Source: Nitrososphaera sp. AFS (GTDB taxonomy: Archaea > Thermoproteota > Nitrososphaeria > Nitrososphaerales > Nitrososphaeraceae). Taken from it: a stretch of 37,007 nt of DNA. Location of the stretch: assembly GCF_009898475.1 (NCBI RefSeq), contig NZ_QURE01000009.1, forward strand, positions 1 through 37,007, read 5' to 3'. The notes below the pieces were generated by a model, which saw only the letters and a program-made list of their open reading frames with translations, had not been told where the DNA came from and searched no databases. A program made the translations under genes and the position numbers. How positions within the stretch are numbered: position 1 is the first letter of the stretch; each line of letters opens with the position of its first letter. Of this stretch, positions 2,961-21,107 are shown in pieces.

Positions 2961-2972
2961 TTTATATATAAA
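2961..2972 (+). promoter_or_regulatory. TATA box of the ComA-winged-helix gene
   Basis: TTTATATATAAA, centred near 2966. The predicted start near 2993 lies 6 bases before the TTG at 2999, which supports that TTG as the real start. Confidence 0.65.
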
Positions 2973-2998
2973 GCTCAAACAAATTCATCTAGCCGAAA

Positions 2999-3985
2999 TT
3001 GCTAGATGATTTAGCTAAGAACCGTGTAGATTTCCAAAAGCCCAGAAAAGAAGGGCTCACATACATTGTAGACAGGTTTCAAGCTATTGACAGAGACAAT
3101 TTCAAAATACTTGCTCCATTCGTAGACATGGTCAAAATTCATGGCGCACTGCCTCTCCTCACGCCAGATAGTCTTCTGAAAGATAAGATCAAAATGTACC
3201 ACGATTTTGAGATAAGGGTATCTACAGGTAGTACGCTCACCGAATTTGCAATTCTGAATCATTCTGTTGATAGTCTTGCAAAACAGGCTTATTCCATAGG
3301 CATAGATGTCATAGAGATTGGTGAAAACAATTTGGACTTGAGTTTGGAAAATAAAAGAAAGATTGTAGAGGTCATAAGGTCAGTCAGTATTGATGTACAA
3401 TGGAAAATAGGTAGGAAAGATCCTAGGCATCAATTAGATGCTGATGAGACGGTTGCCAAAATTCAGGATGCCCTTAAGCTAGGATCACAGAAAGTGATTC
3501 TAGAGGCCAATGATGGTTTCAACGTTGGGATATACGATGAAAGAGGTTCAATAAAATGGAATCTTGTAGGAGCAATAACTGCAAAGTTTCCACCAAACAC
3601 TTTCATTTTCGAATCTCCGCAAGAATCTCAACAATCTGCCTTGATTGCAGAATTTGGACAGCGAGTGAATCTAGCGGAAGTTCATCCTGATTCTCTAGCT
3701 TCTGTTGAATCCCAGCGACGAGGGTTTCTTTCGAAGGCAGTCTTTAATGTATCATATTTGCGGAAAGATCCGGAGGGCGGACCAGCTGCCAAATTCATCT
3801 ATTATATCATAAAGACTAAACACCCTATTGAACAAAGCGATTTAATAAGTCTCAGCCATCTACCAAGAAGGACAGTACAGGGAGCAATAGACGAACTGAA
3901 ATTACAAGGATTGATAATATCAAGAAATAGTCTGGACGACGCTCGAAAGCGAGTGTATGTCCCGGTACATTCGGACTGGCTTTAA
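2999..3985 (+). CDS. Phosphosulfolactate synthase (ComA)-like protein fused to a winged-helix domain
   Basis: 328 residues. Residues about 15-245 follow the ComA (PF02679) TIM barrel in order: GLTYIVD, VDMVKIHGA, STGSTLTEFA, VIEIGENNLDL, KIGRKDP, VILEANDGF, FIFESPQESQQ and RVNLAEVHP. ComA joins sulfite to phosphoenolpyruvate in coenzyme M synthesis; archaea of this type are not methanogens, so the substrate is uncertain. Residues about 262-328 form a MarR-like winged helix (HLPRRTVQGAIDELKLQGLI, then the wing SLDDARKRVYV). ComA proteins are usually about 250 residues, so the winged helix is an addition. Inference: either a metabolite-sensing regulator built on an enzyme fold or a DNA-binding enzyme. 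Start is TTG, supported by the TATA box at 2961-2972. No comB, comC or other CoM gene is nearby. Confidence 0.8.
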   Translation: MLDDLAKNRVDFQKPRKEGLTYIVDRFQAIDRDNFKILAPFVDMVKIHGALPLLTPDSLLKDKIKMYHDFEIRVSTGSTLTEFAILNHSVDSLAKQAYSIGIDVIEIGENNLDLSLENKRKIVEVIRSVSIDVQWKIGRKDPRHQLDADETVAKIQDALKLGSQKVILEANDGFNVGIYDERGSIKWNLVGAITAKFPPNTFIFESPQESQQSALIAEFGQRVNLAEVHPDSLASVESQRRGFLSKAVFNVSYLRKDPEGGPAAKFIYYIIKTKHPIEQSDLISLSHLPRRTVQGAIDELKLQGLIISRNSLDDARKRVYVPVHSDWL

Positions 3986-20063: not shown

Positions 20064-21107
20064 ATGGGATTAATGATAGATCTTTCATTTGGGAACTATT
20101 TTTTCTATGGAGTAGTGGTAACTCTCATTTCGTTTCTCTCTGTGTACTTACTGACACCTAGGTTAATCACCTTGCTGGTCTCGAAAGGATTTGTAGTACA
20201 AGACTACCATAAGCCTGGCAAGCCTCGGATCCCAAGACCTGCTGGTCCAGTTTTGCTCCTTGGCCTAGTGGGTGCTGAAGTTTTTCTTTACTTGTTCACT
20301 CTAAATGCCCAAATTCTAGCTATTTTGCTTACTTCGGTTATTGCATTTTTAGTTGGGTGGATCGACGATAGGAAGGTTATGCCAGGTTTTTTCAAGCCCG
20401 TAGCCCTCATTCTTGCAGCTATTCCATTGGTTGTTCTTGGGGCTCATGGGACACATTTGAATCTTATATTCGGAGATGCGTCAATCCCTCTCTTGTATAT
20501 ACCCCTTATATTCATCATAATTCCAGTTGCAGGTAACACCATCAATTCTATCGACGTTTTGAATGGAGTTGCTAGCGAGGCAGTTATTACGGCTACCATA
20601 CCGCTTTTGGTGTCTATTGCTGTTTTCGGTAATACCATCGTCTTTATTGGTGGGCTTTCTCTTTTTTTTGGAATGATAGCATTTTATAAATACCATAGGT
20701 TTCCTAGTAAAATTTTTCCAGGAGATTCTGGGACATTATTGATTGGAGCCATGTACGGTGCGCTTGCAATCGCGGGTAGTTCTGAAATAATTGGAGTTAT
20801 AGCATTGCTCCCTTCAGTTATGAATTCATTTTTGTTTCTTAATAGCGTGAAGAAGATAGTTGAGCATAGGGAAATCAAATCTCGCCCTACCATACTGATG
20901 GAAGATTTCAGACTAATGGCTTCAAGAGATAAACATGCACCTACAACTTTATTGAGGCTAATCCTAGCGGATGGTCCTCTATCCGAGGAAGGAGTTGGCA
21001 AGAGGATATTGCAATTAGCAATTTACAGCTCATTGTTAGCACTTTTAACGATAGGCATACAATATTATTTTCTGTCAGGTGTCAAACATACGATCCTATT
21101 TCCTTGA
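20064..21107 (+). CDS. UDP-GlcNAc (sugar) 1-phosphate transferase, Alg7/MraY/WecA superfamily
   Basis: 347 residues with about ten hydrophobic membrane segments. Superfamily motifs are present: the DDR triad (101-103, GWIDDRK), NTINSIDVLNG (158-168) and PGDSGT (219-224), which bind Mg2+ and the lipid phosphate. A cytoplasmic loop HREIKSRPT...SRDKHAPTTLLR near the C-terminus resembles that of eukaryotic/archaeal GPT rather than bacterial MraY. Role: moving sugar-1-phosphate (most likely GlcNAc-1-P) from UDP to a dolichyl phosphate, the first step of N-glycan precursor assembly. ATG 20064 is chosen over ATG 20073 from the TATA spacing. Confidence 0.88.
   Translation: MGLMIDLSFGNYFFYGVVVTLISFLSVYLLTPRLITLLVSKGFVVQDYHKPGKPRIPRPAGPVLLLGLVGAEVFLYLFTLNAQILAILLTSVIAFLVGWIDDRKVMPGFFKPVALILAAIPLVVLGAHGTHLNLIFGDASIPLLYIPLIFIIIPVAGNTINSIDVLNGVASEAVITATIPLLVSIAVFGNTIVFIGGLSLFFGMIAFYKYHRFPSKIFPGDSGTLLIGAMYGALAIAGSSEIIGVIALLPSVMNSFLFLNSVKKIVEHREIKSRPTILMEDFRLMASRDKHAPTTLLRLILADGPLSEEGVGKRILQLAIYSSLLALLTIGIQYYFLSGVKHTILFP

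Follow-up and report, generated by a model that had tools for sequence, protein, structure and literature searches.

The phosphosulfolactate synthases (ComA) of M. jannaschii (1qwg) and B. subtilis (1u83) are TIM-barrel proteins of family PF02679, and the barrel is a trimer in ComA. MarR/SlyA regulators (4mnu, 3bpv, and 1s3j) are winged-helix proteins with a D-x-R wing and a palindromic site over their own promoter, and the helices around the winged helix form the dimer and the ligand site. BirA, NadR, PutA, and BzdR are regulators from enzyme folds, or trigger enzymes, that couple an enzyme fold to a DNA-binding domain and are autoregulated. To our knowledge, none of these four uses the ComA barrel. 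Bacterial sulfonate-uptake regulators of the CysB/Cbl type are LysR-type proteins and control ssu/tau-type transport genes.

The gene described here comes from Nitrososphaera sp. AFS and has something in common with each of these systems. It shares with ComA the TIM-barrel fold, the PF02679 assignment, and many residues, including the K137 position, but it has an extra C-terminal winged helix. Like BirA, NadR, PutA, and BzdR, it couples an enzyme fold to a domain of DNA-binding type, and a likely autoregulatory site is found in related genera. The likeness to CysB/Cbl-type proteins would lie in the control of ssu/tau-type transport, with a different fold. Searches of the literature on a ComA-winged-helix fusion, including papers on soil ammonia-oxidizing archaea, found no report of it.

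The window is the whole stretch of DNA that was analyzed, 37,007 nucleotides of contig NZ_QURE01000009.1. The features of the locus are as follows.

2999..3985, + strand: ComA-winged-helix fusion gene (328 aa, TTG start, single open frame)
3035..3730, + strand: ComA/phosphosulfolactate-synthase-type TIM barrel (residues 13-244; PF02679, Foldseek 1qwg)
3731..3781, + strand: linker (residues 245-261; low model confidence at 244-255)
3782..3964, + strand: MarR-type winged helix (residues 262-322; profile and fold evidence, dN/dS)
3866..3907, + strand: predicted recognition helix (residues 290-303; invariant R290, R291, T292, Q294, L300, and Q303)
3914..3964, + strand: wing (residues 306-322; invariant D314, R316, and Y320)
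2961..2971, + strand: archaeal TATA-box-like element TTTATATATAA, ~33 nt before the TTG, read from the sequence
2985..3009, no strand assigned: perfect 9-bp inverted repeat TCATCTAGC-N7-GCTAGATGA, spanning the TTG start codon

The initial annotation described a ComA barrel and a winged helix in one frame, and both domains are borne out. Residues 13-244 match PF02679 with an E-value of 1.8e-61 and 208 bits (Pfam cutoff 25.2 bits). The AlphaFold2 model of the whole protein (pLDDT 86, pTM 0.72) finds the M. jannaschii synthase 1qwg in a Foldseek search with an E-value of 3.4e-21 and a TM-score of 0.85 on the target. The winged helix scores below the Pfam MarR cutoff as a single sequence (PF01047, 18.4 bits for the whole protein and 21.6 for the C-terminal piece; cutoff 24.6 bits) and is clear with a profile of 39 sequences, which matches the MarR/SlyA structure 4mnu with an E-value of 3.6e-6. 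Predicted separately, this domain has the order H-H-H-E-E (pLDDT 85), and its structural neighbors are almost exclusively MarR-family regulators. The MarR dimerization helices were not found on either side of it; the model shows the barrel and a short linker there, so that the TIM barrel stands in the place of the MarR sensor. The C-terminus is not an ordinary ComA extension, since it folds as a MarR winged helix and the standalone ComA-like proteins of families f4 and f18 end without one.

The fusion is conserved. PF02679 matches occur in 49 of 300 genomes of the class. Of 397 genomes from the whole phylum, 15 have a match, and the matching frames from outside the class are no longer than a standalone protein. 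Nitrososphaeraceae carry the fusion, frequently as two copies, and so do a few genomes of f2 and f7 in the same order; it is kept in two paralog groups and in families f1, f2, and f7. The f4 and f18 homologs that were examined are standalone. Absence of the pair from relatives, which would have spoken against the annotation, is thus contradicted in close and distant relatives, and conservation in dozens of genomes rules out a chance fusion or an assembly artifact. The nearest relatives of the window gene form one clade that includes Ca. Nitrosopolaris wilkensis, whose genus is described as putative ammonia oxidizers (PMC10117904). The TTG start is common to the genus relatives (L032-L036).

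No part of the fusion is more conserved, or evolves more slowly, than the winged helix. Invariant residues concentrate in the recognition helix (R290, R291, T292, and Q294) and in the wing (D314, R316, and Y320), which resembles the D-x-R wing motif of MarR proteins. Purifying selection acts on the window gene: dN/dS against L032 is 0.098 over the whole gene and 0.035 over residues 256-328, the winged-helix end. The domain could instead serve an enzyme in oligomerization or protein contact, since winged helices can lose DNA binding and the NAD kinase of the same genome carries a similar domain for which the same role could hold. The invariance of the recognition-helix and wing residues, together with the ssu linkage and the palindrome at the gene's own promoter in related genera, makes this very improbable.

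The pocket of the barrel is remodeled. Positions at which the M. jannaschii and B. subtilis synthases agree were followed across 48 fusions (M. jannaschii numbering). D20, D40, K43, E79, E103, E168, E205, Q212, N224, and R240 are kept, and K137 is retained in 44 of the 48. E133 is replaced by K (47/48), R170 by N (48/48), N227 by E (45/48), and S49 by P (48/48), and W46 is lost. A check of the ComA catalytic residues therefore gives a divided answer, with most shared residues kept and the E133, R170, N227, W46, and S49 positions replaced. According to the secondary structure of the model, the replaced positions fall at the C-terminal ends of the strands, which is the active-site side of a TIM barrel. 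Because the replacement residues are themselves held constant, the pattern indicates a pocket that has been re-specialized and has not decayed. A ComA substrate site that was simply kept is hard to reconcile with this remodeling. The f7 fusions (L002 and L003) keep E133, R170, N227, W46, and S49 together with the winged helix; the fusion event may for this reason predate the remodeling.

These residues also bear on whether the protein is a trigger enzyme, in which the barrel would still catalyze phosphosulfolactate synthesis or a related PEP/sulfite reaction and would repress according to substrate level. Retention of D20 through R240, K137 included, and the coexistence of canonical E133, R170, and N227 with a winged helix in f7 would suit such a protein. 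The replacement of these three residues in nearly all 48 non-f7 fusions argues the other way, as does the score against the phosphosulfolactate synthase equivalog TIGR03849, which at 161 bits is below the cutoff of 280. ComB (PF04029), which comes directly after ComA in the sulfolactate/coenzyme M route, was found in 0 of 15 genomes, with M. jannaschii and B. subtilis as positive controls. A trigger enzyme is unlikely on this evidence, and membership in the coenzyme M pathway is rejected on the absence of ComB from the 15 genomes. Where the fusion gene is labeled "phosphosulfolactate synthase", a genome would be taken, wrongly, to make coenzyme M or sulfolactate.

Outside the window's genus, most relatives have the fusion inside, or divergent from, an operon for a three-gene ABC transporter of the SsuA (aliphatic sulfonate) family. 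Binding proteins beside the fusion pass the TIGR01728 SsuA_fam cutoff of 163.5 with 219, 188, and 203 bits; membership in the SsuA family does not fix the substrate transported. The only two ssuA genes of the complete genome G109 adjoin its two fusion genes, the one ssuA and one fusion gene of G166 adjoin each other, and both ssuA genes of G070 flank one of its two fusions. Both fusion copies are ssu-linked in the complete genomes G109, G132, and G136, and one of two is linked in G070, G093, and G100. The f2 and f7 copies are also ssu-linked, and unlinked second copies occur in genus g2. Rhodanese genes are close to the fusion in several loci.

The transporter is general in the class, and Nitrosopumilaceae carry it without any fusion, which makes the regulator optional. 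The gene order is ATP-PERM-SBP in L197 and L198 and ATP-PERM-fusion-SBP in L096; L198 and L096 belong to one genus. In the Nitrosopumilaceae loci L196-L199, L204, and L205, the SsuABC-like operon lies between arginine-biosynthesis-like genes, and methionine-synthase-like genes are alongside in several loci (gene names assigned by eye). Apparent standalone winged-helix versions beside ssuA were rejected, G190 being a contig end and G184 and G222 remnants. In G301, the gene directly before an ssuA is a second ComA-winged-helix fusion (L137:10181-11137), whose product is highly divergent, with 37% identity to the window protein.

The divergent fusion/ssu intergenic regions have in common the palindrome ATRYGCA-N5-TGCRYAT at about -31 to -12, and in linked loci its center is 18-25 bp before the fusion start codon. 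An exact search of seven whole genomes of genus g5 finds nine palindromes, eight of them directly upstream of fusion or ssu genes, and the reversed pattern used as a control gives 0 sites. An exact site in G121 (contig C24) is within an ORF and is probably due to chance. With one mismatch allowed, 14 of the 47 sites in six complete genomes fall within ~10 kb of a fusion gene, a zone that covers about 1% of the sequence. Trained on the g5 sites alone, a weight matrix places a site 18-24 bp before the fusion in the ssu-linked loci L084, L124, L090, L091, L100, L130, L044, and L206, with window P values of 0.002-0.011 for linked copies of other genera. The same matrix finds no site in the unlinked g2 copies or in the window clade, nor in the promoters of the f2 and f7 fusions, which are ssu-linked; the operator is thus not family-wide. 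In several promoters, the palindrome overlaps a TATA-like element, which suggests repression.

The palindrome could be bound by another factor that controls the fusion together with the ssu genes. The identity of the site-binding protein is beyond the reach of computation, and genes for a zinc-ribbon protein (site at L083:7580) and for a Cys-rich protein (sites at L091:13150 and 13202) have sites upstream as well. Across genera, however, the DNA-binding-type gene that recurs beside ssu is the fusion (small genes were annotated non-exhaustively), and its own promoter has the best-placed site, as is typical of autoregulation. We regard another factor as rather improbable.

The zinc-ribbon gene encodes a small protein beside the fusion (L083:7234-7521 and L120:6071-6400, both - strand) and has an operator-like site upstream. 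In the window's genome, a similar small zinc-ribbon protein is encoded divergently to an orphan ssuA. The Cys-rich small protein (L091:12737-13087, - strand, G100) has two exact palindromes just upstream.

The reading that best fits these observations, with a probability of roughly 0.7 on sequence and model evidence, is that the fusion derives from an enzyme and acts in related genera as an autoregulated one-component regulator of sulfonate-type uptake. The phosphosulfolactate-synthase barrel would be the ligand-sensing part and the MarR-type winged helix the DNA-binding part. In related genera, the regulator most likely binds the 19-bp palindrome both at ssu promoters and over its own, and a sulfonate- or sulfite-related ligand in the remodeled pocket would set the expression of the SsuABC-type transporter and of the regulator itself. 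Control of ssu and of its own gene is probably by repression. DNA binding, repression, and the ligand class are steps that we infer. The initial annotation had left a choice between a sensing regulator and a moonlighting enzyme; the ssu linkage and the shared operator-like palindrome make the sensing regulator the better half of it. Sulfolactate or phosphoenolpyruvate, the ligand proposed there, may be sensed, although the remodeled pocket speaks against a substrate site simply carried over from ComA. The protein may still moonlight as an enzyme, most of all in f7 with its canonical residues.

The chances are about even that these proteins form a new class of archaeal one-component regulators, in which a former phosphosulfolactate synthase acts as a sulfonate- or sulfite-type sensor that governs organosulfur uptake in soil ammonia oxidizers, and f7 preserves an intermediate with catalytic residues. 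The same fusion with a canonical pocket in one family and a remodeled, constrained pocket in another points to a likely route from enzyme to sensor. Few transcription regulators of ammonia-oxidizing archaea have an assigned signal or target, and here a candidate regulator comes with both an operator sequence and a target operon, all of them testable.

The locus differs in the window's own genus, Ca. Nitrosopolaris, where the fusion is not linked to ssu genes. In the window, it is flanked by a cupredoxin-like gene, a small zinc-ribbon-like ORF, and an F5/8C-domain gene. The suggestion of an operator in the promoter (2653-2998) failed for the relatives' palindrome, which neither the matrix nor a window-wide mismatch search found there; across the window it is absent, and matches with up to three mismatches number 11, no more than chance would give (13.3 expected). 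The TATATA block is conserved in the genus alignment of the fusion promoter, and the position of the TATA-box-like element would fit a leaderless transcript. The inverted repeat at 2985-3009 is kept partly in L032 and not in L034. As the only local candidate, weakly conserved, it is a possible operator or hairpin.

The ssu permease locus is decaying in this genus (L169:7189-7990, L170:245-2695, and L171:5808-8399). The permease of G000 is split in two frames, and G185 and G300 have broken binding-protein genes beside the permease and truncated ATPase matches. Metagenome assemblies can contain erroneous frameshifts, but the lesions differ among the three genomes. Orphan ssuA genes persist, and weak operator-like sites upstream of them (L172, L173, and L176) are too degenerate to claim. 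Since the regulator is conserved despite the lost linkage and palindrome and the decaying ssu locus, the fusion probably serves a target other than ssu in the window's genus.

A second enzyme of these archaea has a similar architecture. An NAD kinase of the window's own genome (L051:1486-2490, - strand; contig C30, ~20737-20922) has a C-terminal, related MarR-like winged helix (NAD_kinase_C, E-value 3.4e-20; MarR_2, E-value 1.2e-4). Most Nitrososphaeraceae genomes have matches to it in frames of comparable length, so fusions of enzymes to winged helices may be a theme in these archaea.
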